Of a stretch of DNA of 64,000 bases, positions 14,714 to 32,270 are shown piece after piece. The translations under genes and the position numbers were made by a program. Within the stretch, counting starts at the first letter, position 1; each line of letters starts with the position of its first letter. The DNA is from Kocuria sp. (GTDB lineage Bacteria > Actinomycetota > Actinomycetes > Actinomycetales > Micrococcaceae), in NCBI GenBank assembly GCA_030524035.1, contig JAUNHG010000002.1:248001-312000 (forward strand), in the 5' to 3' direction. The notes beneath the pieces are model-generated. The model had not been told where the DNA came from and did not search any database. It saw only the letters and a program-made list of their open reading frames with translations.

Positions 14714-16024
14714 ATGTCAGAACACAACAGCACCGTCGAAGAACACAGTGAACAGGTTTCTGGTGAGGACCCGGTTGTGGGGGTGGGTCTTCTGGCAGAT
14801 GACGCCCGCGCGGCGGCTCGTTCCTTGGCTCGGGTCAACCGTGCCCGTAAGGACGCTGCTTTGCTGCACATCGCCCAGCGGATAGAGCAGCAGGCTGATG
14901 TGATCGTCGGGGCGAATAAAAAGGATTTGGCCCGTGGCCGTGACAACGGAACATCGACCGCCATGCTGGACCGTCTTGCCCTGGATGCTGATCGTATTGC
15001 GGGGTTAGCCGACGCCCTTCGGGAACTGGCGGCCTTGCCGGATCCGGTGGGCAGCGTGGTGCGGGGGCAGACGCTAGCGAATGGGTTGCGGATGCGCCAG
15101 GTTCGGGTGCCCATGGGTGTGGTGGGGGTGATTTATGAAGCCCGCCCCAATGTGACCGTGGATATCACGGGCATTGCGTTGAAGTCCGGTAACGCGGTGC
15201 TGTTGCGTGGGGGATCGGCTGCGTTGGAATCGAATCGGGCGTTGGTGGGGGTGATTCGGGATGCCTTGGCAGACCAGAAACTTCCCGTGGATATTGTGCA
15301 GTCCATTGATGATTACGGTCGCCCCGGTGCTGAAGCGTTGATGAGGGCACGCGGCAAAGTGGATGTGTTGATTCCGCGTGGGGGGCATGGGCTGATTCAG
15401 TCGGTGGTCACCAATGCCTCCGTGCCCGTGATTGAAACAGGCGAAGGTAACGTCCATGTTTTTGTGGACGAATCCGCGCCGGAAAAAATGGCGGTTGATG
15501 TTGTGGTCAATGCCAAAACACAGCGGTATTCCACGTGCAATACTGCCGAAACCTTACTGTTGCACAGCGGGGCGGCCGCTGGTCCTGCGGTCTTGGAAGC
15601 GTTGGTGAAGGCTGGAGTACAGCTGCATGTGGACGACCGCGCCGCCCAGATGGTGCCTGACAGCGCGACGGTCGTGGCAGCGACGGATGACGACTGGGCA
15701 ACGGAATATTTGGATGCCCAGATGGCGGTGAAAGTGGTTGATAGCTTGCATGAAGCTATTGCGCATATTGACCGGTGGAGCACCCGGCACACCGAAGCCA
15801 TTGTGACCAACCATGTGAATCATGCGGAGGAGTTTGTTGCTGCGGTGGATGCCGCTGCGGTGATGGTGAATGCTTCAACAAGGTTTACGGATGGCGGGCA
15901 GCTGGGATTGGGCGCAGAAATCGGGATCTCCACGCAGAAAATGCATGCCCGTGGCCCCATGGGGTTGGAAGAGCTGACCACTACCAAGTGGATTGTGCAG
16001 GGGGATGGGCACATAAGAAAGTGA
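14714..16024 (+). CDS. proA: Gamma-glutamyl phosphate reductase
   Basis: Second step of proline synthesis: NADPH-dependent reduction of glutamyl-5-phosphate to the semialdehyde. The 436-residue aldehyde-dehydrogenase-fold protein has the motif VPMGVVGVIYEARPNVT, ALKSGNAVLLRGG for cofactor binding and the catalytic cysteine in YSTCNTAETLL. An AGGAG sequence precedes the ATG. It lies directly after proB. Confidence 0.97.
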   Translation: MSEHNSTVEEHSEQVSGEDPVVGVGLLADDARAAARSLARVNRARKDAALLHIAQRIEQQADVIVGANKKDLARGRDNGTSTAMLDRLALDADRIAGLADALRELAALPDPVGSVVRGQTLANGLRMRQVRVPMGVVGVIYEARPNVTVDITGIALKSGNAVLLRGGSAALESNRALVGVIRDALADQKLPVDIVQSIDDYGRPGAEALMRARGKVDVLIPRGGHGLIQSVVTNASVPVIETGEGNVHVFVDESAPEKMAVDVVVNAKTQRYSTCNTAETLLLHSGAAAGPAVLEALVKAGVQLHVDDRAAQMVPDSATVVAATDDDWATEYLDAQMAVKVVDSLHEAIAHIDRWSTRHTEAIVTNHVNHAEEFVAAVDAAAVMVNASTRFTDGGQLGLGAEIGISTQKMHARGPMGLEELTTTKWIVQGDGHIRK

Positions 16025-18768: not shown

Positions 18769-18844
18769 GGGGCTGTGGCGCAGCTGGTAGCGCATTTGCA
18801 TGGCATGCAAAGGGTCAGGGGTTCGAGTCCCCTCAGCTCCACCA
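18769..18844 (+). tRNA. tRNA-Ala (anticodon GGC)
   Basis: 76 bases with an acceptor stem GGGGCTG / CAGCTCC, D arm GCGC-AGCTGGTA-GCGC, anticodon stem TTTGC / GCAAA around loop ATGGCAT (anticodon GGC), T arm AGGGG-TTCGAGT-CCCCT and encoded 3' ACCA. It marks the left edge of the accessory region. No second copy of its 3' end was found further right in the window, so an attachment-site duplication is not shown. Confidence 0.97.
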
Positions 18845-18848
18845 GAAA

Positions 18849-19040
18849 GTCGTTGTTCAAACCAACGACATCACCGGTTTGAGTTCCAGACCCTCGCCTT
18901 CCGTCCTTGGTGACGGAAGGCGAGGGTCTGGACGGCCGGGTCCAGGAACCCGCATCGCTTCCGATGCTTCGGCGGCATCGGCGAGCGGATCGTGGAACGT
19001 GGGCATGACGGTTCCTTCCTGACATGGCGTGTCAGGAAGG
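18849..19040. repeat. Cluster of four perfect inverted repeats after tRNA-Ala
   Basis: Arms are at 18849-18855/18863-18869 (GTCGTTG/CAACGAC), 18885-18905/18912-18932 (21 bp perfect, 6-base loop), 18961-18967/18975-18981 (CCGATGC/GCATCGG) and 19014-19024/19030-19040 (CCTTCCTGACA/TGTCAGGAAGG). The first may be the tRNA terminator. The others precede a membrane-protein gene and could be transcription terminators, a structured leader, or part of a transfer or recombination site of the element. Confidence 0.6.
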
Positions 19041-19865: not shown

Positions 19866-20481
19866 GACTCACACCCACCGGCACAGCGGCAGTGCGGCGG
19901 CGGTGAACGCCGCAGCCTGCTGGCCCACCAGGAGCCGGGTCTCGCAGGAGGCTTGGATGGCGGCCTGCTCGATCGCTGCCACCCCGGCCTCGAGTTCCTC
20001 GATTGTGGGCGCGGACACCGAGATGAGGCCGGTGTATCTGAGGACGCCGTGTCCTGCGGTGAGGTCGGCTTCCTGCTGGAGCACGTCTTGGTACTCGGCG
20101 GTCTGGGAGGCGTCTTCGATCTACCCGATCTTGGCCCGCTGCGCTTGATCGGAGATGTGCTCGACCTTCTTCTTGCGGATATCTCGTGCGGCCTGGTCGG
20201 AGCGCATCGGGGTGCAGATCAGCGAGAATGACCGTTGGATACCGGTGGAGAGCAGCATCGGTGACAGGAAGCCGGGATAGACCAGCGACCGGGGCCATTC
20301 GGAGACCCAGAGCACGGCGTGGTGAGCGGAGTCGGTCCGCAGCCGGGTCCAGGACTCGTTGACCGCGACCGGGCCGGCGGTGGCGAGGGACTGGCCGAGT
20401 TCGCCGTGGCGCTCCAACGTGGCGGCGATCGCCGGCGGGTCCGGCACGCTCGATCAGCTCCGCGTACGTGGTCGCGGCTCA
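19866..20481 (-). pseudogene. Fragment of SCO6880-family conjugation protein, multiply disrupted
   Basis: Two adjoining minus-strand frames together read like the C-terminal half of the SCO6880 family found in actinobacterial conjugative elements: one contains GPVAVNESWTRLRTDSAHHA and WVSEWPRSL, the other contains LRYTGLISVS and GQQAAAFTAAALPL. Lesions seen: an in-frame TAG at 20121-20123 between the two parts, a frame change near 20,447 (upstream TTYAELIERAG is in another frame), and a TGA at 20479-20481. The product also ends early after ALPLCRWV and lacks the usual N-terminal half. Clearly non-functional. Confidence 0.65.
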
Positions 20482-20687
20482 CGCATCGTATTCGCATCGC
20501 TCCACACGTTGGGTCACTGTCTGTGACTGTGAGGAAGCTCTCCCGGCGCCATGCGGGGGCAGTGAGGCCCTCTGCAGGTGAAGAGACTGCTCGTTAACCG
20601 TAGCTTTCGTCCTCTGATCGGGGGCATGGACGCTCGCCGCCCACGGACGTGGTCGTCGAGAGGTAGTTTCTCCGACGTTGGCTGCGG

Positions 20688-21473
20688 TCATCCAGATACC
20701 GACGTTGAGGTGAAAACCGGTTGCCCGCTCGAAGCAGTCAAACCGCCGTCGACCGGGAGGTTGACGCCTGTGATGAAACGGGCATCATCACTGGCAAGGA
20801 ACGCGATAGCGTTCGCGACTTCCTTTGGTTCGCCGGCCCGCCTGAGAGGGATGCGCTCGGTGAACCGTTCGACGAGGGCCGGACTGTCGGTGATGTACCG
20901 GGTGAGCTCGGTGCGTACGTAGGTCGGGCAGACCGCGTTAACTCGGACTCCGTGTGAGCCTTCATCCAGGGCCAGTGCACGGGTGAAGTTGGAGACGGCG
21001 CCTTTCGTGGCGCTGTAGATGCTCATTCCCCAGTCACCTCCGATGCCGGCGACGGAGGAGACGTTGACGATTGCTCCCCGCGTTTCGCGCAGGTGCGGCA
21101 GGGCCGCGCGGCACAGGTGGATGACCGCTTCGGTGTTGATCGCGAACGCTTCGCGCCAGTCGCCCCAGAACGACTCGTCGAGGATGCTGCCTTCCCACGC
21201 GACTCCGGCGTTGTTGACGAGCCCGTGGATCTGACCGAATGCTTCATGTCCTTGTGCGATGAGCTTCGCGCAGGTTTTGGGGTTGCTCAGATCACCGGGA
21301 ACGAGCAGAGTGCGGGTCGTGTCGAGGTTCTCGGCCAGAGCCTGGAGTCCTGTGTGGTTTCTGCTGGCCAGGACGAGGTTGGCGCCCTCGTGATGCAGTC
21401 TGCGGGCGGTGGCGGCGCCGATGCCTCCGCTCGCGCCGGTGATGATGACGGTGCGTTCGTCGAATCGGTTCAT
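20688..21473 (-). CDS. SDR-family NAD(P)-dependent oxidoreductase
   Basis: 261 residues of the classical short-chain dehydrogenase fold: cofactor motif TGASGGIG at residues 13-20, NNAG near residue 87, catalytic serine in NVSSVAG and YSATK with the catalytic Tyr and Lys, then the C-terminal PVDGG. The closest type is the FabG / 3-oxoacyl-ACP or glucose dehydrogenase-like subgroup. The substrate is unknown. It is the last gene of the minus-strand operon, 25 bp after the truncated metK, and appears intact. In context it could reduce a keto group of an arylamine metabolite (inference). Confidence 0.88.
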   Translation of the reverse strand: MNRFDERTVIITGASGGIGAATARRLHHEGANLVLASRNHTGLQALAENLDTTRTLLVPGDLSNPKTCAKLIAQGHEAFGQIHGLVNNAGVAWEGSILDESFWGDWREAFAINTEAVIHLCRAALPHLRETRGAIVNVSSVAGIGGDWGMSIYSATKGAVSNFTRALALDEGSHGVRVNAVCPTYVRTELTRYITDSPALVERFTERIPLRRAGEPKEVANAIAFLASDDARFITGVNLPVDGGLTASSGQPVFTSTSVSG

Positions 21474-21498
21474 GACGTCTCCTTCGGTGATGGTTCGT

Positions 21499-22263
21499 CT
21501 ACTGAGCGGCGTCGCGCAGGGCGTCGGCGCGGTCCGTGCGTTCCCAGGTGAACTCGGGAAGCTCCCGGCCGAAGTGCCCGTAGGCTGCGGTTTGGGCGTA
21601 GATCGGGCGCAGCAACTCGAGATCGCGGATGATGGATCCGGGGCGGAGGTCGAAGACCTCCCGGACGGCGCTCACGATCGTCTGGTTCTCGACGGTGCGG
21701 GGCGTAGCACCGTCGTAGCCGAGCGTGACCTGGGTCTTGCCGTCTGGTCGGAGGAGCGGCAACTGTCCTGACTTGCGCGCTGTCGTGAGGCGCTCGGCCA
21801 GTCGGTGGGCGGTCTTGATCGCCAGGGGCATCATTTCGGGGGTCTCGTTCGTGGCGTAACTGAACATGATGCCCTGGTCTCCTGCGCCCTGCTGGTCGTG
21901 AATATGGGAGGCGTTGCCATCTCGGGCTTCTTCGGAGGTGCTGACGCCGTCGCCGATCTCGGGCGACTGTTCTCCGATCGATACGGTCACGCCGCAGGAG
22001 TCTCCGTCGAAGCCCATCTCGCTGGAGGTGTAGCCGATGCCGTTGATGACCCGGCGGGCGATGGCGGCGATGTCGGCGTAGCCGCTGGTGCGGATCTCCC
22101 CGGCGACGTGGACCAGGCCGGTGGTGACGAGGGTTTCCACCGCGGTGCGTGAGTGGGCGTCCTGGCTGATGAGTGTGTCAAGGATGCTGTCGCTGATCTG
22201 GTCGCAGATCTTGTCCGGATGGCCTTCGGTCACCGATTCCGACGTGAAAAGCCGTAGTGTCAT
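21499..22263 (-). pseudogene. metK: S-adenosylmethionine synthetase with large in-frame internal deletion
   Basis: 254 residues from the start [18 protein letters not shown], with AAGGAC upstream. It contains normal N-terminal motifs ([24 protein letters not shown]) and the normal C-terminal end ([29 protein letters not shown]). Between YDGATPRT (about residue 190) and [13 protein letters not shown] roughly 140 residues are missing compared with the usual 395-405, including the glycine-rich GGGAFSGKDPSKVD segment and catalytic lysines. The frame is kept. Such a protein should not make SAM. MetK copies inside biosynthetic clusters usually supply SAM for methylation, so this is probably a decayed cluster gene; a housekeeping metK must be elsewhere. 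Confidence 0.8.
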
Positions 22264-22348
22264 GGTCTGTCCTTCTTCTCGGGTGATATCGCGGTCCGGG
22301 CGGCGTTGGGGAGCACCGCTTGCGGTGCGCCACAACGCCGGTGATCGC

Positions 22349-23797
22349 TTAGTGGGGTGCGGCTTTCAGCGTGGGCGTCTTGCGGAGAAGCACGGCCAAT
22401 CCGGCTAGGGCGAGTGCGCATGCTCCGATGACGATCAGTAGTACGGCGCGGTAGCCGTCAGTGCCGGATGTTGAGAGCGCGGTGATGGTCGTGTAGATGC
22501 TGCCGAGCACGGTCACCGAGAGGAGGCTGCCGAACTCGTAGGAGACTTCCTCGACGGCTGAGGCCATGCCTGCGCGTTCGGGGGCGACGTTGGTGATGAT
22601 CGTCGAGGACGCGACGGTGATCAGCACGCCGATGCCGGTACCGGCGACGAACAGGCTCAGTCCCAGCCAGGTGATGTGGGCGTTGAGGGTCAGTGTGGCC
22701 AGGCCGTATCCGATACCGGCCAGGACGGTGACGACCAGTAGTAGCGCTCGTGGCCCGATGCGGGTCAGGAGCGATCCGCTGGCCAGGGAGGTGATCGTCG
22801 CGCCGACGGCGATGCAACCCACGAGCAGCCCGGCTTGGAGGGGCGTGTACCCGGCGGCGGTCTGGAAGTAGAGCGAGGTCACTGCCCCGATGCCGGCGAA
22901 CACGAAGGTGCTCAGTCCGGCGGCAAGGACACCGGCGGACACGGCGGCGTCGCGGAAGATGGTGAAGTCCAGCAGCGGCGTATCCAGGCGGTGTTGGCGG
23001 GTCACGAACAGCGCGAAGCCGACCACAGCGGCGACCAGTGAGATCCCGATGATCGTCGCTGACGGCGAGGTGGAGGCGATTTCCTTGATCGCAGCGACGA
23101 GCCCTGTCAGGCCCACGAGTGCCCAGATGGAGGAGACAAGGTCCCATGGGACGGCTGATTCTTCGGCGGCTTTCGGGGCGAAGATCGCGGTGAGGATGAA
23201 CGTCACGATCACGATCGGCACGTTGATCAGAAACACCGACCCCCACCAGAACCACTCGAGCAGGAGGCCGCCGACGAGGGGCCCGAACGCGATTCCACCG
23301 ATCGAGACGCTCGACCAGACCGCGATGGCGATGTTGCGTTCGCGTTCGTCGTCGAAGGTGATGCGGATGATCGCCAGGGTCGCCGGGAGCATGAGGGCTG
23401 CGCCGACGGCGAGCAGCGCGCGGGAGAAGATCAGGATGCCTGGCGTGGGTGAGAACGCGGCGACGAGCGAGGCCAGCCCGAACAGGGCGATCCCGAGGAG
23501 GAACACTCGCTTGTGGCCGTAGCGGTCTCCCAGGGTGCCGGTGCCCAGGAGCAGGCCAGTCATGACCAGCGGGTACATGTTGATGATCCATAGGGGCTCG
23601 CTGGTGGTCGCGCCAAGGGCATCATCGAGCACGGGGACGGCGATGTAGAGGATCGAGGTGTCGATCGTGGCCAGAAGGAGGCCGAGGGAGACGGCGGTGA
23701 GGACGATCCATCGGCCGCGCCGGGCCCGGGTGTCTCCGGGAGCGGGGGTGTTGGCGTCGAGGGTCTCGGGTCGGGTGTTGCTGTTGTCGTGAGTCAT
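22349..23797 (-). CDS. DHA2-type MFS drug exporter
   Basis: 482 residues with about 14 membrane segments, matching the drug:H+ antiporter-2 family (EmrB/QacA/SmvA-like). Motif A appears as [13 protein letters not shown] between helices 2 and 3, and the family signature [22 protein letters not shown] is at the start. The ATG at 23797 overlaps the upstream acetyltransferase stop as ATGA, so the open frame further upstream is not used. It is the probable exporter or self-resistance pump of the cluster. It appears intact. Confidence 0.9.
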
Positions 23798-24357
23798 CCG
23801 GTGTGCTTTCTTTGGTCCCATTCGTGCTTGAGCATGGCGAAGGTGAACTCGTCGCCCCATTCGCCCTTGAAGATCTCCAACTCGCGGAAGTGAGCTTCCT
23901 TGCGCAGGCCGAGTCGTTCCATGAGCCGGGCGGAGGCGTCGTTTCGCGGGTCGCATCGCCCGATGATGCGGTGCAGGTGCAGGGTCTCGAACCCCAGGCG
24001 GAGCATTTCGACGGCTGCTTCCGAGGCGAGGCCTTTGCCCTGGTAGTCGGGGTGGAAGACGTATCCGAACTCGCCCTGGGAGTTGTCCCGGCTGAGCAGT
24101 GTGAGCAGCACGTAGCCGATGACGGTGCCGTCGTAGTCGACGGCCAGCAGGAGGGTGTCCCCGTCCTTCTCGAGCTTGGTCTGGGTCACACGCTTGGCGA
24201 GTTCCTCGGCGTTGTCCTCGCGCGAGCGGGGCTCGTTGAAGAGGTACCGGGCGACGTCGTCGCGGGATTCGAAGTCGAACATGTCGTCTTCGTCGGCGGG
24301 CGTGAACGGTCTGATGATGAGGCGGGAGGTGGTGATGGGCTGATCGAGGTGGAACAT
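23794..24357 (-). CDS. GNAT-family N-acetyltransferase (RimJ/RimL type)
   Basis: 187 residues starting MFHLDQPITTSRLIIRPF, with AAGGAG 6 bp upstream. The GNAT acetyl-CoA motif is seen as FHPDYQGKGLASEAA, followed by HRIIGRCDPRNDASARLMERLG, typical of RimJ/RimL-like enzymes. The start overlaps the stop of the chimeric gene as TAATG and the end overlaps the exporter as ATGA, so the three genes are tightly coupled. In a locus for an aromatic amine, N-acetylation for resistance or tailoring is a reasonable guess, but the substrate is not shown. Confidence 0.88.
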   Translation of the reverse strand: MFHLDQPITTSRLIIRPFTPADEDDMFDFESRDDVARYLFNEPRSREDNAEELAKRVTQTKLEKDGDTLLLAVDYDGTVIGYVLLTLLSRDNSQGEFGYVFHPDYQGKGLASEAAVEMLRLGFETLHLHRIIGRCDPRNDASARLMERLGLRKEAHFRELEIFKGEWGDEFTFAMLKHEWDQRKHTG

Positions 24358-25979
24358 TACTTTCTCCTTCTGCAGCACGTGTGTGCGGTCATGGTCAGTG
24401 CGACGCTGCCGGTGGCGTCCGACGGGTCGCGGTAGGCGTCGAGCAGGTCCGGGATGCGGTGCCGGTGGCCGTCGACGAACACGTCGCGAATCCTGGCGGT
24501 ATCGGCGATATCTGTCAGGGGGTCGCCGTCAATGATGAGCATGTCGGCATGTGCCCCGACGGTGAGTTGTCCGAGGAGTTCGCTGGCCCCGAGGGCTTTG
24601 GCCGCGTTGACCGTTCCGGTGCGCAGCGCGTCCACCGGGGTGAAGCCGTGTCGGACGAGGGCCCGGAGATTGGTGTGGATGCTGACGCCGAGGTCGTCCA
24701 AGGGTGCGTCGGTGCCGAGCACCACGAGGCCGCCGGCGTCGTTCACCGACCGCAAGAGGTCGACGTCGCCGCGGGTCCATGCCAGGTTGATGGGGTCGGG
24801 GTCCGTGGCTGCCTGCTCGGCCTTGTCTTGAAGTCGGCGGTAGTCCCACCAGGGGTAGAGCACGCGGGTGCGTTCATCGTCAACCAGGGCGAGGAGGTAG
24901 GTGTAGCACTGGCGATGATCGATGACGATGGCTCGGTCGGCGAAGAGCAGTACTGCGTCAGGGTGAGGCGATTGATGGACTGGTGTTCCGACAGTTTCGT
25001 CTTTGAGTTCGTAGCCGAGAGCCCCGACGTAGCCGAGATTAAAGTCGAAAGGAAGCTCCTCGTCTGCGGGGATTGCACGTTCCTGCAGCTGGTCTCGAAG
25101 ATAGGCGTAGAAGCCCTGGTTGACGGTTCGTTCACCCTCTCTACCGCGGACGCGCCATTGGCTAGCGGTGACGTCGTACTGCAGGATCTCGGCGAGCGGT
25201 CCCGTGGTGTCCCCCATGATCGTTAGGCGCTTGGAGGTGGGATCGGTAGTCGAGCTATCGAGCCAAAAGCTGGTCTGACGCTCGGCATAAATGCCCTCGA
25301 ACAGACGCTGGGTGTCGGGTTCGCCGTCGATTCGTTGCCATTCCACACGTAGCCGGGGGCGACGTGTCTTGCGCTGAACGTTCGTGTTGTGGCTTGTGGG
25401 TCTGGGGTGGGTGTGTACGAGCGCCTGGAAGTTCATCAGCATCGCTTCGCCCCACTCGGTCAGCGCTGACTCGGGGTGGAACTGGATGCCCCAGTACGGC
25501 CGAGTTCTGTGCCGGACCGCCATGACCACGCCGTCCGGGGTCCACGCGATCGGCTCCACGTCGGCGGGTAGGTCAGTGACCGCCAGGGAGTGGTAACGCA
25601 CTGCCTGAAACCCCTGGGGCACGCCGTGGAAGAGGTCAGTGTCGTAGTGGTGCACGCTCGTGACCCGGCCGTGCATGGGCTCAGGTGCCAGATCGACGAT
25701 CGCGCCCGACGCGAACGAAAGCGCCTGGTGACCGAGGCAAACGCCTAGGACGGGAAGCCGGTCCTGTTCGAAAGCGTGACGTGAGATTCCCAGGTCCTCA
25801 GAACGCTGGGGACGACCCGGCCCGGGGGAAACGATGATGCCATCGAACTCGTCGAGGGCGATGTCTGTCCACTCGGCATCGTTCGTGATGACGACTGGCT
25901 CAGCGCCGAATACGCGGTGCGCGAGATCGCGCAGGTTGTAAGTGAACGAGTCAAAGTTGTCGATCAGGAGGGTTCTCAT
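24357..25979 (-). CDS. Chimera: aminodeoxychorismate synthase N-terminal half fused to amidohydrolase C-terminus
   Basis: 540 residues. Residues 1-190 are a class I glutamine amidotransferase (LLIDNFDSFTYN, SPGPGRP, GVCLGHQ with Cys81, FHPES with His168 and Glu170). Residues 205-370 match the N-terminal domain of PabB (FWLDSS, FNLGYVGALGYE). Around residue 372 (near base 24,863) the similarity changes abruptly to the C-terminus of an imidazolonepropionase-like amidohydrolase (VVLGTDAPLDDLG, GTVNAAKALG, GAHADMLIIDGDPL). The whole chorismate-binding domain of PabB and the metal-binding HxH start of the amidohydrolase are absent. Most likely an in-frame deletion joined two genes; neither activity beyond glutaminase is expected. 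Confidence 0.8.
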   Translation of the reverse strand: MRTLLIDNFDSFTYNLRDLAHRVFGAEPVVITNDAEWTDIALDEFDGIIVSPGPGRPQRSEDLGISRHAFEQDRLPVLGVCLGHQALSFASGAIVDLAPEPMHGRVTSVHHYDTDLFHGVPQGFQAVRYHSLAVTDLPADVEPIAWTPDGVVMAVRHRTRPYWGIQFHPESALTEWGEAMLMNFQALVHTHPRPTSHNTNVQRKTRRPRLRVEWQRIDGEPDTQRLFEGIYAERQTSFWLDSSTTDPTSKRLTIMGDTTGPLAEILQYDVTASQWRVRGREGERTVNQGFYAYLRDQLQERAIPADEELPFDFNLGYVGALGYELKDETVGTPVHQSPHPDAVLLFADRAIVIDHRQCYTYLLALVDDERTRVLYPWWDYRRLQDKAEQAATDPDPINLAWTRGDVDLLRSVNDAGGLVVLGTDAPLDDLGVSIHTNLRALVRHGFTPVDALRTGTVNAAKALGASELLGQLTVGAHADMLIIDGDPLTDIADTARIRDVFVDGHRHRIPDLLDAYRDPSDATGSVALTMTAHTCCRRRK

Positions 25980-25986
25980 CGGAGTG

Positions 25987-26319
25987 CTACCTCAACGTGG
26001 CGCTGTCGTTGGGCGCGGGAGAGCCGTCGATGATGAGATCTTCAACGCGGCACGTCTCGGTGATGATCACCTCGTAGAGCCTGCGCAAGAAGTCCGTGCT
26101 GATGCCGTGCTCCCGGCCAAAGGCTTCGGCTCTCTGGTGTACGAAACCCACCCGCTCGGGCTGCATCATGGGGATGTCATGCTCACGTTTGAGCTGCGCA
26201 ATGCTCACGCAGCACTCGATACGACGACGCAGGATATCCAGGAACTGCGCGTCTAGCCTGTCCAACTCATCGCGTCGGTCACGGAGGGTGACATCCGGGT
26301 TAGTCGGTTTGGGGTCCAC
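25987..26319 (-). CDS. AroQ-type mutase, PapB-like (4-amino-4-deoxychorismate or chorismate mutase)
   Basis: 110 residues forming a single AroQ-fold helical domain: RDELDRLDAQFLDILRRRIE, the IAQLKREH segment with the active-site Lys, IPMMQPERVG and IITETCRVEDL. The MMQP motif and length resemble PapB/CmlD-type 4-amino-4-deoxychorismate mutases of pristinamycin and chloramphenicol pathways rather than housekeeping chorismate mutases (family resemblance from memory). Starts with GTG behind AGGAG. It ends 7 bp before the aminodeoxychorismate-synthase chimera, the enzyme that would originally have supplied its substrate. A PapC-like dehydrogenase is not found in the window. Confidence 0.75.
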   Translation of the reverse strand: MDPKPTNPDVTLRDRRDELDRLDAQFLDILRRRIECCVSIAQLKREHDIPMMQPERVGFVHQRAEAFGREHGISTDFLRRLYEVIITETCRVEDLIIDGSPAPNDSATLR

Positions 26320-26610
26320 AATGTGCTCCTGCCGTCAGATGGATCACAGGCCGGGGAGACACGCGCTGTCCGCAGCGTGCCCCTGCCTCCTGATCTCACG
26401 CTATAAAATGAGACCGGTGCCGTCGCTTGACATCGAGCGCCAGGAACTTGGCAACGGAGGCACAGCGTTTCGCCCGCGATAAAAGGGCTTGGAATAGGAT
26501 CTCGAAAACCGCACGACATGCACTGAAGCCGAAGATCGGCCATGCCAGCGATTGATGACTGAGATGATTGCCGGATGGCACGGCGGCGCCATAGGCCTAA
26601 CGGTTGAAAT
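26320..26610 (-). promoter_or_regulatory. Probable promoter/leader region of the minus-strand cluster
   Basis: 291 bp between the AraC-family regulator and the mutase gene. It has a TTTTATAG sequence on the minus strand near 26,403-26,410 that could serve as a -10 element. No convincing protein gene; short frames here have no recognisable similarity. It is the natural target region for the adjacent regulator. Confidence 0.35.
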
Positions 26611-27570
26611 CTAAGGATTCACCAGAAAGGTCGTGCGATAGTCGCGCGGCGGCGCGCCAAACCGTGAACGGAACGCTCGCGAGAACGTGCTCGGGTCCGA
26701 GAATCCCCAATTTGCCCCTATGTTACTCACAGGGATATGACTAAAGGCGGGATCAATCAGTTGCCTACTGGCACCGTCTAGACGGCGAGCCCGTATCCAC
26801 TCAGCCAGTGTGGAGTCTTCATTCTCAAAAAGGCGATGGAGATAGCGGACCGAAATGTGGTGAACATCGGCTATGAGTCTCGGTGTCAGCTCTGGACTGG
26901 CGAGGTTCTTCTCCACGAAGCGGTAGATAGAGTCGACAAGGGAAGCATGTCCTTCGCTGGGGCGACCCGTACGATCTTGTGCTTGCAGGAGTGCGACTGA
27001 AAGTAGATCTACAAGAGCATTTGATAGTCGCGCGGCAGATGCCCCACTGAGCCAGTGTTGCTCTAGGTTGGGTGCGATTTCAGCAACCATTGTTGAAAGG
27101 AGTCGTCCGGCGCCGTTCTGCCCGCTTACATGAACAGCGGTGATATTGCACAGATTGGGAACTTTATCTTCAAGCAAGCTCTTAGGTATTGCTGCAGTCA
27201 CTGCGCGAACTGATGAATTTGGCGGACAGTAAAGGACTGAAGGAATCGAATCGTCGAGTATACTGAAATCCCCAGATTGCTCGATCATTGACTCTCTGCC
27301 GTCCTGGCGGAGTCCAATCTTCCCACCTTCGAGGTGAAGTTGAAGAAGGAATACGTCCGTTTCTTCTTGTCGAACGTGACGAGCGTTTCGGGTGATTTCG
27401 TAGCCGCCGGTGGCGCGGTACTCCGCTAGCGAAAATGTCACTGGGCCAAGGGTTCTGGTCACCATACGGCCATGGAACGTTTCATCATTCCTGCTCACGC
27501 GGACTGCGCAGTGCGCGTGAGCCAGTGACAACGTCCTGCCAGTAGTCGATCCGGCGATGGAAGGCAACAT
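26611..27570 (-). CDS. AraC-family transcriptional regulator
   Basis: About 319 residues. The N-terminal 200 residues resemble the AraC-binding-like sensory domain (TDVFLLQLHLEGGKIGLRQDGRE), and the last 100 form the double helix-turn-helix (LIADVHHISVRYLHRLFENE, then IGANWGFSDPSTFSRAFRSRFG followed by PPRDYR). The start is uncertain: ATG 27570 is used, but the frame is open from GTG 27624. It lies directly upstream of and in the same direction as the mutase operon, so it is the likely local regulator. It is less G+C-rich than the operon it precedes. Confidence 0.85.
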   Translation of the reverse strand: MLPSIAGSTTGRTLSLAHAHCAVRVSRNDETFHGRMVTRTLGPVTFSLAEYRATGGYEITRNARHVRQEETDVFLLQLHLEGGKIGLRQDGRESMIEQSGDFSILDDSIPSVLYCPPNSSVRAVTAAIPKSLLEDKVPNLCNITAVHVSGQNGAGRLLSTMVAEIAPNLEQHWLSGASAARLSNALVDLLSVALLQAQDRTGRPSEGHASLVDSIYRFVEKNLASPELTPRLIADVHHISVRYLHRLFENEDSTLAEWIRARRLDGASRQLIDPAFSHIPVSNIGANWGFSDPSTFSRAFRSRFGAPPRDYRTTFLVNP

Positions 27571-27680
27571 CGTCCGTACTGAAGCTCTCCACGCCCATGC
27601 ATATACCTCCCCGCGGTGAAGCACTGTAGGAGTACTGATCTGATGATATCTGACCCCTTGGATGTAGGCGGTAGATTCAC

Positions 27681-28312
27681 ATGCTGATTTTTCGGTATTG
27701 CAGGTGTGTGATGGCCTTAATGATCATTAAGGTGTTTCTTTTTCCTCTTCAGGTTGTGGTGGCAGTGAAGACCAAGTGGCTAAGCCTGGTTTAAATGATT
27801 CTGATATGGGATTTCAGACATTCGTGCCATATGAGCCGCCCCCTCTGCGACCACTGGATGCAAGAATTTGTGACAAGAATCTTGAACCCACTTTCATTCA
27901 ATGGAGGGTTAAGGGTAAGTTTGTACAAGCCGATGCATCCAGTAATGAATTGCTCTCTATCAATAAAATGACTCTTCCGAGCGAAAATTATTTGCGAATT
28001 TTCTTATCTGACCTTCGTATATCATCTGAAGTTCATTTGAGGGTTTTTCAATCCGTCGGACCTGACGGTTATCCCGCTAGGGGTGACCTTGGCGAAGAAT
28101 ATAAATGTGGTCACTCTGAGGTTCCTGAATTTAATCACTGCAGAATCAATTTTAATGAATATGGTTCCGGGATCGTGCGAATCAAAGGGGAAAATTTCGC
28201 ACAAACAACCTCCAAATTCATAGTTGTGGAAATCCGTTACCCCACGCTTGAAGAATCTGATATAAATGAGAGTATCCCGTCGTATTCAGTATCTTGGGCA
28301 TTTAAAGTGTGA
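27681..28312 (+). pseudogene. Secreted lipoprotein with single-base frameshift in its signal peptide
   Basis: From ATG 27681 one frame reads MLIFRYCRCVMALMIIKVFLF, a plausible signal peptide. The next frame reads SSSGCGGSEDQVAKPGLNDSD, a lipobox-like cysteine and start of a mature lipoprotein, and stays open to the stop at 28312. Adding one T to the T5 run at 27739-27743 joins them into one 210-residue lipoprotein. The mature part (about 185 residues) is rich in beta-strand-like segments and not recognised. Base composition is A+T-rich compared with both sides, suggesting foreign origin. A GTG at 27776 could give a cytoplasmic product only. Confidence 0.55.
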
Positions 28313-28329
28313 AAGTCCGGAGGATTGTG

Positions 28330-28916
28330 ATGGCTGACCATGCCACCAAGAGAGTTTAAGATGAGTCTTTGAATGTATATCGAATACTCCTTCCATTAAT
28401 GCAATCACCTAGTGGTGAATTCAATTCCTGAACCAGGGTTCTCAGCCACTCTGGGGAGGTTGAAGAAATCCGAAACAGGAACCTGTCTGAACTTCAAGAG
28501 GTCGCTGGACCAGCGGCTTGCGACTGGCAATCGAGCTTCGGCTTTGCTTCACGGGAGTATCAAAAAAAGTTTGTGCATGCCCTCGGGTCTACTGCGCGCA
28601 CGAACCGTTGGAATCTGGCCTACTGGAGAGGGTATAGGTATCCACTACGTAATTTTGAGAGCAAAATCATCAACTCAATCGAATGTGAGTTATCGAGGGT
28701 GACGCTAAGTGAGCTGGAATCTCTAGTATCCGAATTTCGCTTACCAACATTTTGCCGGGACGATGAAAAAATTTGATTTGGCACACTGAAATATACCCCG
28801 ATTTGGCAATTTTAGAAACAAGCAGGGATAATTTTCTTACATACTTCAATCCTTGGGTTGAAGCTTTTGCTGTAGATCGAAAGTCTAGCGAACTGGAGGA
28901 GCTGAGTGTTGAATAA
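28330..28916 (+). pseudogene. Broken gene of unknown function, partner of the lipoprotein
   Basis: ATG 28330 follows GGAGG and starts MADHATKRV, but a TAA stands at 28357 and a TGA at 28429 in the same frame. Between and after them the frame stays protein-like (NVYRILLPLMQSPSGEFNS; EVEEIRNRNLSELQEV; AYWRGYRYPLRNFESKI) up to a stop just after the A6 run at 28766-28771. There the coding character moves to another frame (LIWHTEIYPDLAILETSRD to KSSELEELSVE, stop 28914-28916). Repairing two stops and one base would give about 195 residues. Family not recognised. It begins 17 bp after the lipoprotein, as in a two-gene cassette. Confidence 0.5.
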
Positions 28917-28942
28917 TGAGCCTTGGGCCACTCAACTACTCA

Positions 28943-29095
28943 GTTTGTCAGACCACCCGCGAGTCCCGCAGCATAGGCAAGGTTATAGAGCGCGAACGAG
29001 CCACCAAGTGTGGGTGAGCTCGCCTTGTACCCCTGGTTGCTCATGAGCGTCGTTGCCGGTGCTAAGACCAGCGCTGACACACCCCAAGGAGGAAC
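28943..29095 (-). pseudogene. Fragment of an MFS transporter
   Basis: A minus-strand frame reads GVSALVLAPATTLMSNQGY followed by TLGGSFALYNLAYAAGLAGG, which resembles one helix-loop-helix part of DHA1-type drug exporters. Nothing recognisable as transporter flanks it on either side, so it is about 50 residues of a once larger gene. It lies just upstream of pabAB on the opposite strand and indicates past deletion between the cassette and pabAB. Confidence 0.45.
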
Positions 29096-29295
29096 ATGCC
29101 GAGGTAGGTCTGCCACAGTTCGGTGGCGAGCCCGGTCACTCTGGAAGATTGTCGATTGCGCGGGACAATGCTGCACCTCTGTACGATGTTATGCGCACCA
29201 ATGCGCAGGAACAACACCTGAAAGTTGTGGTTCTTCCGTGCGGCTTGACCCCTATTGCGGCATGGGGGAGGGGCAGCCTGGAAAGACGGAGATCA

Positions 29296-31464
29296 ATGCG
29301 AGTATTGCTCATCGATAACCATGACTCTTTCAGCTATAACCTGGCGCACGACATCGCTATTGTCACCGGCAAACACCCCGACGTTGTTCTGAACGATGAT
29401 CCCCCAGTTCACTGGTCCGCTCTTTCTGAGTGGCTCAGCGGGTACGACGCCATTGTCGTTTCACCCGGCCCAGGAACGCCCGAACGGTTTTCAGACCTGA
29501 TGATCTCTCACTGGGCGATCGCGCAACATGACGTACCAGTACTGGGAATCTGTCTCGGAATGCAGGCCATTGCCCACGACGCTGGCGTACCGATCATCCG
29601 GGCACCCCGCCCGGTCCATGGGGAAGTGGCTGACATCCAACACCACGGTGCGGGTTTGTTCACAGGATTACCTTCGCCCCTCGGCATGGTGCGATACCAC
29701 TCGCTTGTCGTCGATCCACAAGCATGCGAGTCGTGCGACGACATCGTTGTCGACGCACGGGACGGCGACATCGTGATGGCTCTTCACCGTAGAAGCCGTC
29801 CGCAGTGGGGACTTCAGGCACACCCCGAATCTGTCTGCTCAGAAAACGGCCAGGCCCTTCTGACGCGGTTCTTTGAACTCGCACGAGACTGGAATCAGCA
29901 ACACGGACGTTCAGAGGTCTCTCGACCCGAATACCCCGATGCGCTGCCCCCCGCAAGTCAAGATAACCCAAATCTGACGTGGCAGGTTCTCCTGCGACGG
30001 GTTCGGACGGCAGCGTCATCAGAGACGATCTTTGACACCCTGTTTCGCCACGACGATCACCCGTGGTGGCTCGACTCAGCCACCGGCGACGGGGTGTCGA
30101 TGTGCGGTTCGGCGGCCGGGCCCCTGGCAAGAGTCGCGGTAGCCGAACCGGGTGGGGTACGGGTGCGTGACGCAAACGGCAACTATGAAATCGCGCAAGA
30201 CCTTCTGAATCTAGTTGAGCGCACGTTCGGTGCGGTGCGGGTCGTCGACCTCGGAGGGGAGGGCTTGACAGCAGCGGATCTCCCGTTCACCCCAGGGTGG
30301 GTGGGGTATCTCGGCTACGAGTACACGTGCCGTTGGCTTCCCCCATATTCCGATGGCAGTTCCCAGGCCGCAGCGACACAATCTGGGAACGGCGACGTCA
30401 CGTCACCGGCCACCTTAGTGTTTGGGGACCGTGCCGTCGCCATCGAAGGCAGCACCGCCTGGGTAATGGCGCTAACGCAAGACCGAGTGGAGGCATTACA
30501 ACACGAGTGGGTCACTCGAACTGCTGAACAGCTTCGCACTCTAACGACGCCACCCACCAGCCTCCCGAACCCACCGGTATGTGATGAAGTGACGGTACGC
30601 CATGATCGAGCTGAGTACATAAGACTCATTGAACGATGCAAGGAAAAGATCCGAGCTGGTGAAAGCTATGAGCTGTGCTTGACCAACCGCATCCGGGTTG
30701 CTGCCCATTCCGACCCGTGGGCGGTCTACCGCCGGCTCCGGACTCTTTCCCCGAGACCATTTGCCGCATACCTCGCGTTCGAAGACCACCACGTGCTGTC
30801 AGCTTCACCCGAACGTTTCCTCAAAGTGCAGACCGATAGACAGATAGAGGCCAAACCTATCAAGGGCACCAGAGCTCGATCGGAGGACCAGCTTGAGGAT
30901 GCACGCTTGGCGGAAGAGCTCGTGCAATCAGTCAAGGAAAGAGCCGAAAACCTCATGATCGTCGATCTGCTGAGGCACGACCTATCCCGAGTGTGTTCTC
31001 CCGGTACAGTCCATGTTCCTCTGCTCTTCGACGTGGAGTCACACGCAGGCGCCCACCAGCTCGTGAGCACGGTTCGGGGCACCCTTATTCCTTCGTGCAG
31101 CCCCCTGGATGCTGTGCGTTCCGCACTTCCTGGCGGATCGATGACCGGGGCACCCAAAGAGAGATCCGTGTCAATTCTTCGGGAACTGGAGGATGGTCCA
31201 CGGGGTATCTACTCAGGAGTTCTTGGATATTTTTCGGTCAATGGCACGGTTGATCTCTCGATCATTATTCGTACGATCGTTCACCAGGCCGAGTACCTCG
31301 ACTTCGGTATGGGTGGGGCCATAACCACACGATCAGACGCGTTAGAGGAATGGGAAGAGACGCTCGTGAAGGCGCGTACTTTTGGCGTAGCACTAGGACT
31401 TGACCTCGATACTCACATGAACGTGGCAGACGTGCACGAGCAGCTACCCAATGGGGGCTCTTAA
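29296..31464 (+). CDS. pabAB: Aminodeoxychorismate synthase, fused PabA-PabB
   Basis: 722 residues from ATG 29296 (GGAG 4 bp upstream, N-terminus MRVLLIDNHDSFSYNLAH). An open extension back to 29053 has no family similarity. Residues 1-190: glutamine amidotransferase with GICLGMQ (Cys86) and the AHPES histidine. Then the PabB N-terminal domain (WWLDSATGDG, GWVGYLGYEY) and the chorismate-binding domain with EAKPIKGTRAR, IVDLLRHDLSRVC and GGSMTGAPK. It makes 4-amino-4-deoxychorismate from chorismate and glutamine. The convergent pabC-like gene ends 3 bp away and completes 4-aminobenzoate synthesis for folate. It could also have fed the adjacent arylamine cluster. Confidence 0.92.
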   Translation: MRVLLIDNHDSFSYNLAHDIAIVTGKHPDVVLNDDPPVHWSALSEWLSGYDAIVVSPGPGTPERFSDLMISHWAIAQHDVPVLGICLGMQAIAHDAGVPIIRAPRPVHGEVADIQHHGAGLFTGLPSPLGMVRYHSLVVDPQACESCDDIVVDARDGDIVMALHRRSRPQWGLQAHPESVCSENGQALLTRFFELARDWNQQHGRSEVSRPEYPDALPPASQDNPNLTWQVLLRRVRTAASSETIFDTLFRHDDHPWWLDSATGDGVSMCGSAAGPLARVAVAEPGGVRVRDANGNYEIAQDLLNLVERTFGAVRVVDLGGEGLTAADLPFTPGWVGYLGYEYTCRWLPPYSDGSSQAAATQSGNGDVTSPATLVFGDRAVAIEGSTAWVMALTQDRVEALQHEWVTRTAEQLRTLTTPPTSLPNPPVCDEVTVRHDRAEYIRLIERCKEKIRAGESYELCLTNRIRVAAHSDPWAVYRRLRTLSPRPFAAYLAFEDHHVLSASPERFLKVQTDRQIEAKPIKGTRARSEDQLEDARLAEELVQSVKERAENLMIVDLLRHDLSRVCSPGTVHVPLLFDVESHAGAHQLVSTVRGTLIPSCSPLDAVRSALPGGSMTGAPKERSVSILRELEDGPRGIYSGVLGYFSVNGTVDLSIIIRTIVHQAEYLDFGMGGAITTRSDALEEWEETLVKARTFGVALGLDLDTHMNVADVHEQLPNGGS

Positions 31465-31467
31465 TGC

Positions 31468-32214
31468 TTACACCGGCTCTAATGCGTCGTCGAGGGCAGC
31501 ACGCCACGTGTGAAAGCGCTCCCCAGCACCGGGGGTGATATCTGCGTTGATCCAGCCGGTGACGAGCCGGATGCCCTGAAAGGCATTGAGAAGCCAGACT
31601 TCACGGCCGTTGAGGTCCAACAAACTTGCCGAAACTCGGCGCACTTCGATGCCCATGACACGGGCTCTGGCTTCCACCAGGGCACGTGTCACGCTGGGAA
31701 GGACCGGGAGCTCAGCCGAAGGAAAGCACAGTGCGTTGCTGTCCCACCAAACGACGGCGGCATGTCCTGCCTCTAGCACGTGACCACAGCCGTTACGCAA
31801 GAGGACCTCGTCTGCCCCAACCGCGTGCGCTGAGGTGATGAGTTCGGCTGTCGCGGCCAGATCAGGGCCCTTAACCCACGGATTTGAACGATGATCGCCG
31901 GTCGGCAGCACCTGAACAACTACTGAGGGGCGACGTTTGGGTCCCCTGCGTAAGTCAAGGTACAGCGTGCGTTCCACGAGCCTTGCTCGGGGGAACCACT
32001 CTCCACTCTTGGGCACTAGAGCCGCGGCGGCGCTCACCATTGCACCTCCGTCGAGTCCCGACTCACACGCGGCAACAGCTTGTGCGAATCGCAGCTGGTG
32101 CAGATCGAGTCGTCTGACCCGACCATCCACTTGTCTCCAGGAGTCAGCCACCCGCATCTTCCCCGCCGGCTCCGGTGCAGGGCTGAGCTTTGTGCCGTCC
32201 CAGGCAAACGTCAT
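31468..32214 (-). CDS. pabC: Class IV aminotransferase, probable 4-amino-4-deoxychorismate lyase
   Basis: 248 residues of the PLP fold-type IV family. Recognisable parts: VERTLYLDLRRGPKR, the WVKGPDLAATAEL segment that probably carries the PLP lysine, GADEVLLRNGCGHVLEAG and PSVTRALVEARA. It would release pyruvate from aminodeoxychorismate to give 4-aminobenzoate. The pairing with pabAB, convergent with only 3 bp between the stops, supports this over a branched-chain or D-amino-acid aminotransferase. The start is ATG 32214 or GTG 32217; no strong ribosome-binding site. Confidence 0.78.
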   Translation of the reverse strand: MTFAWDGTKLSPAPEPAGKMRVADSWRQVDGRVRRLDLHQLRFAQAVAACESGLDGGAMVSAAAALVPKSGEWFPRARLVERTLYLDLRRGPKRRPSVVVQVLPTGDHRSNPWVKGPDLAATAELITSAHAVGADEVLLRNGCGHVLEAGHAAVVWWDSNALCFPSAELPVLPSVTRALVEARARVMGIEVRRVSASLLDLNGREVWLLNAFQGIRLVTGWINADITPGAGERFHTWRAALDDALEPV

Positions 32215-32270
32215 CACCGACCAAGCCTAACCGGGAACGTTATAGGTGTGTTAGGCGGCAGGATCATAGT

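Follow-up and report, generated by a model that had tools for sequence, protein, structure and literature searches.

A single open reading frame in the Kocuria sp. contig JAUNHG010000002.1 joins PabA and the N-terminal domain of PabB, in frame, to the C-terminal end of an amidohydrolase. The frame lies in the 64,000-nucleotide stretch that was analyzed here (positions 248,001 to 312,000 of the contig; hereafter, the window) and is very probably a scar, left when a horizontally acquired gene cluster lost ∼8.0 kb by illegitimate recombination at a 12-base near-identity. Both halves are present as separate genes on one contig of a member of the same genus, Kocuria atrinae C3-8, in the same order and on the same strand as in the window, with the flanking genes kept as well. 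The parent halves lie 8007 bp further apart in K. atrinae than in the window, and 8007 is divisible by three. The frame and its parts are as follows.

24357..25979, minus strand: chimeric open reading frame, PabA plus PabB N-terminal domain plus amidohydrolase C terminus, 540 residues (open frame, Pfam, and alignment with the K. atrinae parents)
24876..25979, minus strand: PabA/PabB N-terminal half, residues 1-368 (Pfam, alignment)
24357..24888, minus strand: amidohydrolase C-terminal half, 172-176 residues, lacking HxH (90% identity to K. atrinae residues 836-1012)
24877..24888, no strand assigned: joint, 12-base motif TCGTCnACnAGG common to both parent genes and encoding LVDD (parent alignment)

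The chimeric frame and its joint

The first-pass annotation had read this frame as a chimera whose first ∼370 residues are PabA plus the PabB N-terminal domain, and both Pfam and the K. atrinae parents, which are 79% identical over residues 1-371 and 90% identical over residues 364-540, bear this out. The Pfam matches comprise GATase at residues 4-184 (profile positions 1-186 of 190; PF00117, 158 bits), Anth_synt_I_N at residues 226-360, and Amidohydro_1 at residues 408-505, the last covering only profile positions 234-343 of 345, that is, the final third. The glutaminase residues Cys81 (GVCLG, from residue 79) and His168 and Glu170 (HPES, from residue 168), which we take to be the GATase catalytic triad, are kept; judged by sequence the glutaminase domain appears complete, and the PabB N-terminal domain is retained. 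As had been noted, the chorismate-binding domain of PabB and the metal ligands of the amidohydrolase are both missing. No Pfam match to Chorismate_bind (PF00425) was obtained in the fusion, and K. atrinae PabAB has this domain at residues 422-676. The C-terminal barrel part of the amidohydrolase with its GTD aspartate is retained (GTDAP at fusion residue 422), but the HxH motif, located at residue 648 of the K. atrinae parent and presumably its metal site, is absent from the fusion, in which the parent sequence begins at residue ∼836. The parent is a 1012-residue propeller-amidohydrolase with a Tat-like start (motif judged by eye). The description of this end as imidazolonepropionase-like stands for an amidohydrolase C terminus, but imidazolonepropionase itself scores poorly (E = 8.6e-6; 25 bits, cut-off 298). 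A CCR motif near the C terminus, which the window fusion retains at its end, occurs in six of nine propeller-amidohydrolase ends delimited by the end of the frame (loci L034, L041, L046, L047, L072, and L076) and is also seen in the alignment near the ends of L039 and L040.

Alignment with the separate parents places the change-over from PabB to amidohydrolase at residues 365-368, LVDD. The joint thus falls at 24877-24888, 14-25 bases to the right of 24,863, where the junction had first been put. At this point 11 of 12 bases are identical between the two K. atrinae parents (TCGTCGAC, then T or A, then AGG), each of which encodes LVDD; the window reads TCGTCAACCAGG. For random position pairs in the two parent regions, a match of at least 11/12 in a 12-mer touching the joint arose in 14 of 200,000 draws (7e-5), and the share was similar among in-frame pairs (1.0e-4 of 66,814). 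At its other end, the fusion has a stop codon that overlaps the acetyltransferase start codon, ATG, as TAATG (24355-24359), so that the frame and the coupled start are preserved, as first noted from the sequence; the amidohydrolase and acetyltransferase frames overlap in K. atrinae too. The window contains no N, and the fusion lies inside a 710-kb contig of a 99.75%-complete genome, a draft of seven contigs.

The fusion was found in no genome other than its own. Among 27 genomes of the genus, the window's included, the two halves share one frame only in this genome, and 29 bases across the joint were recovered, at ≤3 mismatches, in one of 295 family genomes, again the window's own. The halves were in one frame in 0 of 18 cluster-type loci, namely those of 80 compared loci that have a match to the methyltransferase half of the oxidase-methyltransferase described below; the amidohydrolase end is present at all in nine of the 18, and in eight of these it is in frame with its own N-terminal part. 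The 80 loci come nearly all from a set of at least 79 loci matching two short patterns, with one genome represented twice (L036 and L074). In the plasmid collection, 562 records matched the fusion and none covered 80% of it at one place. A DNA search of the same collection with 20500-26700 matched 402 records, none covering 80% at one place; the 20 matches listed are to the MFS and metK genes. A conserved bifunctional fusion protein, of which no copy exists outside the window's genome in these sets, was accordingly rejected.

The encoded protein is probably dead. Because the chorismate-binding domain is gone and the HxH site is absent, it would be expected to have neither aminodeoxychorismate synthase nor amidase activity. 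We consider it very unlikely that the chimera is instead a functional new protein, such as a free-standing glutaminase or a regulatory protein kept by selection. The retained glutaminase residues, the open frame, and the lack of a clear excess of replacements (see below) would agree with such a role, but both active parts are incomplete, the fusion occurs in no other genome searched, and PabA normally requires PabB for activity.

Parent genes in Kocuria atrinae and the missing DNA

The cluster of K. atrinae, read along the minus strand, consists of an AraC regulator, chorismate mutase, full-length PabAB, a PapC-like dehydrogenase, an oxoamine-synthase-type pyridoxal phosphate (PLP) enzyme, a 770-residue flavin adenine dinucleotide (FAD) oxidase fused to a PrmC-like methyltransferase, the propeller-amidohydrolase, a GNAT acetyltransferase, an MFS transporter, and a broken metK. 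The stretch missing from the window comprises the PabB catalytic domain, the PapC-like dehydrogenase, the oxoamine-synthase-type enzyme, the N-formimidoyl-synthase-like oxidase with its PrmC-like methyltransferase, and most of the propeller-amidohydrolase. K. atrinae is hence a relative with separate pabAB and amidohydrolase genes in which the genes between them can be read. The first-pass annotation had proposed a PapC-like dehydrogenase as a possible loss; it does lie in the K. atrinae gap, but further genes were lost with it. Its assignment is borderline. The K. atrinae pieces match PDH_N with E = 0.0004, a level that other Rossmann families about equal or exceed, and PDH_C with 21.6 bits (cut-off 22), while the Lentzea counterpart reaches 26.4 bits for PDH_N (cut-off 26.5) and 26.2 bits for PDH_C (cut-off 22).

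The missing oxidase and amidohydrolase parts are not found elsewhere in the window's genome, in which no search was made for the PapC-like or oxoamine-synthase genes. The oxidase-methyltransferase query returned a single match, a PrmC-like protein aligned to its methyltransferase half, and the amidohydrolase query returned just the remaining end and a weak 50-residue match.

The neighboring genes and the route to the joint

These data suggest the following course of events. An actinobacterial, antibiotic-type secondary-metabolite cluster like that of K. atrinae, extending from AraC to metK, would first have been acquired horizontally. Illegitimate recombination at the 12-base near-identity within pabB and the amidohydrolase gene would then have removed ∼8.0 kb. 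Since each motif copy encodes LVDD in one and the same frame, and the number of bases lost is divisible by three, the two sides would have met in frame, and open translation as far as TAATG would leave the acetyltransferase and efflux genes translatable. The scar is probably recent. The features surrounding it are the following.

25987..26319, minus strand: chorismate mutase-type gene (papB-like), upstream of the fusion (Pfam, K. atrinae comparison)
26611..27624, minus strand: AraC-type regulator, corresponding to the regulator of the K. atrinae cluster, with low GC content at third codon positions (GC3) and saturated synonymous divergence
23794..24357, minus strand: GNAT acetyltransferase, open, start overlapping the fusion stop, 92% identity to K. 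atrinae
22349..23956, minus strand: MFS efflux-type transporter, open frame, coding start probably inside the frame as listed
21499..22335, minus strand: metK copy with an internal in-frame loss of ∼141 codons, joined at a TVE/TVD motif
20688..21473, minus strand: short-chain dehydrogenase, closing the high-GC3 segment
20121..20447, minus strand: SCO6880-family gene fragment beside the cluster
18769..18844, plus strand: tRNA-Ala (ggc), at the opposite edge of the foreign stretch
29053..31464, plus strand: second full-length pabAB, 38% identity to the fusion
31468-32217, minus strand: pabC-like class IV aminotransferase beside the second pabAB

The composition of the cluster is foreign. GC3 is 0.57-0.65 in eight chosen native open reading frames of the window and 0.68-0.87 from chorismate mutase to the short-chain dehydrogenase; the AraC gene has 0.53. 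The short-chain dehydrogenase is at most a possible member of the cluster, the K. atrinae contig ending in metK. Against K. atrinae, the proportion of synonymous differences (pS) is 0.78 and 0.79 for two native genes, a cytidylyltransferase-like gene (214 codons) and the open reading frame at 14714-16024 (227 codons), and only 0.34-0.56 for the cluster genes from chorismate mutase to metK. As the cluster pS lies below that of the native genes, the cluster appears to have been exchanged horizontally after the species separated.

Several observations weigh against this account. First, in K. atrinae itself the papC, oxoamine synthase, and MFS genes appear to be frameshifted and metK, near the contig end, is broken, so that this copy is an imperfect stand-in for the ancestor; the frameshifts in this copy (L034) may be sequencing error or decay. 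Second, the chimera shows no sign of decay yet, being free of stops and frameshifts. Amino acid changes assigned to the window and K. atrinae branches by a majority of six outgroups number 3/6 in PabA, 4/8 in the PabB N-terminal domain, 3/3 in the amidohydrolase end, 4/4 in the GNAT gene, and 1/0 in chorismate mutase, with single outgroups scattering (amidohydrolase end 5/2 with L039). With the six outgroups there is thus no clear excess of replacements on the window branch that would mark relaxed selection since the event. The missing decay fits a very recent event but equally fits some remaining constraint. Third, the synonymous divergence (dS) from K. atrinae is 0.91-1.03 for chorismate mutase, PabA, and the PabB N-terminal domain versus 0.45-0.53 for the amidohydrolase end, GNAT, the MFS pieces, and metK. 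A simple deletion does not need this step, and the two halves may differ in history.

The dS step bears on the main rival, a crossover between two copies of the cluster. Here an incoming segment resembling that of K. atrinae, with the amidohydrolase end, GNAT, MFS, and metK, would have recombined into a resident, more diverged copy (AraC, chorismate mutase, and pabAB). Homology downstream would have anchored the exchange, and joining at the short motif would have dropped the genes between. Besides the twofold difference in dS, the GC3 values step alike, 0.68-0.80 versus 0.85-0.87, and the AraC gene, with saturated pS and a GC3 of 0.53, lies further out still. On the other side, control pairs free of the fusion vary ∼1.6- to 4-fold in dS among genes of one cluster (Nocardiopsis, 0.11-0.42; Lentzea, 0.17-0.32; L039/L072, from Streptomyces and Saccharopolyspora, 0.51-0.91; L039/L040, 0.49-0.78), and the divergence step could fall anywhere within the missing 8 kb. 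We regard a crossover as a possible but minority explanation and a simple deletion as more likely. The proposal of the first-pass annotation that a deletion fused the ends of two genes is accordingly supported by the spacing of the K. atrinae parents, with a crossover between copies as the other route.

The joint is known from one draft assembly of one strain, and an assembly or cloning artefact joining distant ends could draw on the short identity at the joint and on the draft state of the seven-contig genome. However, assembly word sizes usually exceed the 12 bases of this near-identity, the frame is exact, the oxidase and amidohydrolase parts occur nowhere else in the assembly, and the same operon has a second in-frame loss, in metK. 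An artefact is hence scarcely probable.

The metK copy keeps its N-terminal domain, with S-AdoMet_synt_M reduced to profile positions 1-75 of 120 and S-AdoMet_synt_C to 87-138 of 138. The genome has an intact metK elsewhere (contig C4, 349827-351047), relative to which ∼141 codons are gone between the VD and TVD motifs; the loss was judged by protein, against this 61-64% identical paralogue rather than a full-length parent of the copy itself. That two losses, in the fusion and in metK, should both be in frame has a chance of 1/9, which hints at selection for open frames. The GNAT gene has a dN/dS of 0.07 to K. atrinae; the MFS gene was compared in two pieces. Promoter-like and terminator-like sites in 20400-29200 were at the level of shuffled sequence (2 versus 2.5 and 5 versus 5.3, respectively).

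The second pabAB was considered as part of the same cluster and dropped, as it adjoins the pabC-like gene and has native GC3. Given this neighbor and composition, the pair likely serves folate supply, which should then not depend on the fusion. The foreign stretch is bounded by the tRNA-Ala and AraC genes. The stretch with the SCO6880-family fragment shares 80% identity with a Microbacterium plasmid and also with DNA close to this tRNA in a different member of the genus, and the fragment may be the trace of a conjugative element. Within the window, no exact copy of at least 14 bases of 18769-18860 was found further right on the plus strand as an att-like repeat, and no other place matches the last 25 bases of the tRNA-Ala on either strand at more than 19/25. 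The tRNA-Ala may be an insertion hotspot, judging by other members of the genus: a recombinase-like open reading frame with an SCO6880-like match lies nearby in L133, and transposase-, relaxase-, Erm-, and GNAT-like frames lie near it in L135 (names in both loci assigned by eye from the frame starts).

The parent cluster type and known systems

Nine of the 80 loci, K. atrinae included, hold PabAB, oxoamine synthase, oxidase, methyltransferase, amidohydrolase, and GNAT genes together (L034, which is K. atrinae, and L039, L040, L041, L043, L046, L047, L072, and L076). The cluster type occurs in Kocuria, Streptomyces, Nocardiopsis, Lentzea, and Saccharopolyspora. To our knowledge no product of it has been reported, and among open-licence full texts, judged by titles and the starts of abstracts, no description of the cluster or its product was found. 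The oxidase and PrmC-like methyltransferase are encoded in one frame in nine of the 18 loci (L034, 6060-8372, minus strand; L039-L045; and L072) and not in one frame in the other nine. A search for the oxidase linker in 396 genomes of the order found one, Cellulomonas sp. URHD0024, which has the oxidase with pabAB in another kind of cluster. The same oxidase type also occurs in Streptomyces griseoluteus (L050, 9098-16103), beside an MTS methyltransferase, a RidA-type protein, a condensation-adenylation-carrier nonribosomal peptide synthetase, and a flavoprotein-family protein; this cluster presumably resembles a dithiolopyrrolone cluster.

A speculative account of the pathway can be offered, although we think it quite unlikely to hold. 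In this undescribed pathway the oxoamine synthase would turn a 4-aminophenylalanine-type amino acid into an alpha-aminoketone. The oxidase, which resembles Orf1 of BD-12 (see below), would add a glycine-derived formimidoyl group, an imidazole would close, and the PrmC-like domain would methylate it; on chemical grounds, ring closure to an imidazole is conceivable for an alpha-aminoketone that bears such a group. Acetylation, efflux, and the exported amidohydrolase would represent self-protection and activation. If all this were true, the window strain would be a resistance-only derivative in which production was ended by two in-frame losses, at pabAB-amidohydrolase and in metK, and selection would have kept the acetyltransferase and efflux genes translated.

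The locus is a clear case of an acquired biosynthetic cluster losing its core while adjoining genes stay open, with a relative that shows both parents, and it warns against annotating such a frame as a bifunctional enzyme. The scar itself is ordinary; the parent cluster type, whose product was not found in the open-licence full texts searched, is the more interesting lead.

Comparison with known systems shows several likenesses. The first 368 residues of the fusion, the chorismate mutase neighbor, and the PapC-like gene of K. atrinae are shared with the fused PabA-PabB aminodeoxychorismate synthases of 4-aminophenylalanine pathways of the chloramphenicol type, from which the window fusion differs in that its chorismate-binding domain is gone. 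A Rhodococcus qingshengii plasmid (NZ_CP077418, L136) carries pabB, prephenate dehydrogenase, chorismate mutase, and 3-deoxy-D-arabino-heptulosonate 7-phosphate (DAHP) synthase genes beside a diiron oxygenase and CmrA, a set that we take to resemble a chloramphenicol-type cluster with a 4-aminophenylalanine-type pathway. In contrast, the parent cluster of the window has the oxoamine-synthase-type enzyme and the formimidoyl-synthase-like oxidase instead. The C-terminal 172-176 residues of the fusion correspond to proteins that combine a TolB propeller with an amidohydrolase (PF07676 and PF01979), although the fusion lacks the propeller, the signal, and the HxH metal site; the nearest solved amidohydrolases are the L-arginine carboxypeptidase Cc2672 (3mtw) and an Xaa-Pro dipeptidase (2qs8). 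Residues 6-465 of the lost K. atrinae oxidase match N-formimidoyl fortimicin A synthase and Orf1 of BD-12 (E = 6e-128), with the FACG cysteine conserved. The Orf1 paper devotes a section to a covalent adduct at C281 (PDB 7xqa; PMC10156733), and the aligned oxidase cysteine is probably C281, as counted from the printed alignment on the assumption of a 21-residue tag. Unlike Orf1, the K. atrinae oxidase carries a PrmC-like methyltransferase in the same protein and is encoded together with a 4-aminophenylalanine-type pathway, and it is absent from the window. Finally, the joint has the properties of in-frame deletion chimeras formed at short direct repeats, that is, a short shared motif of which one copy is left and the loss of the DNA between, whereas in the present case the joining may have been a crossover between diverged copies.

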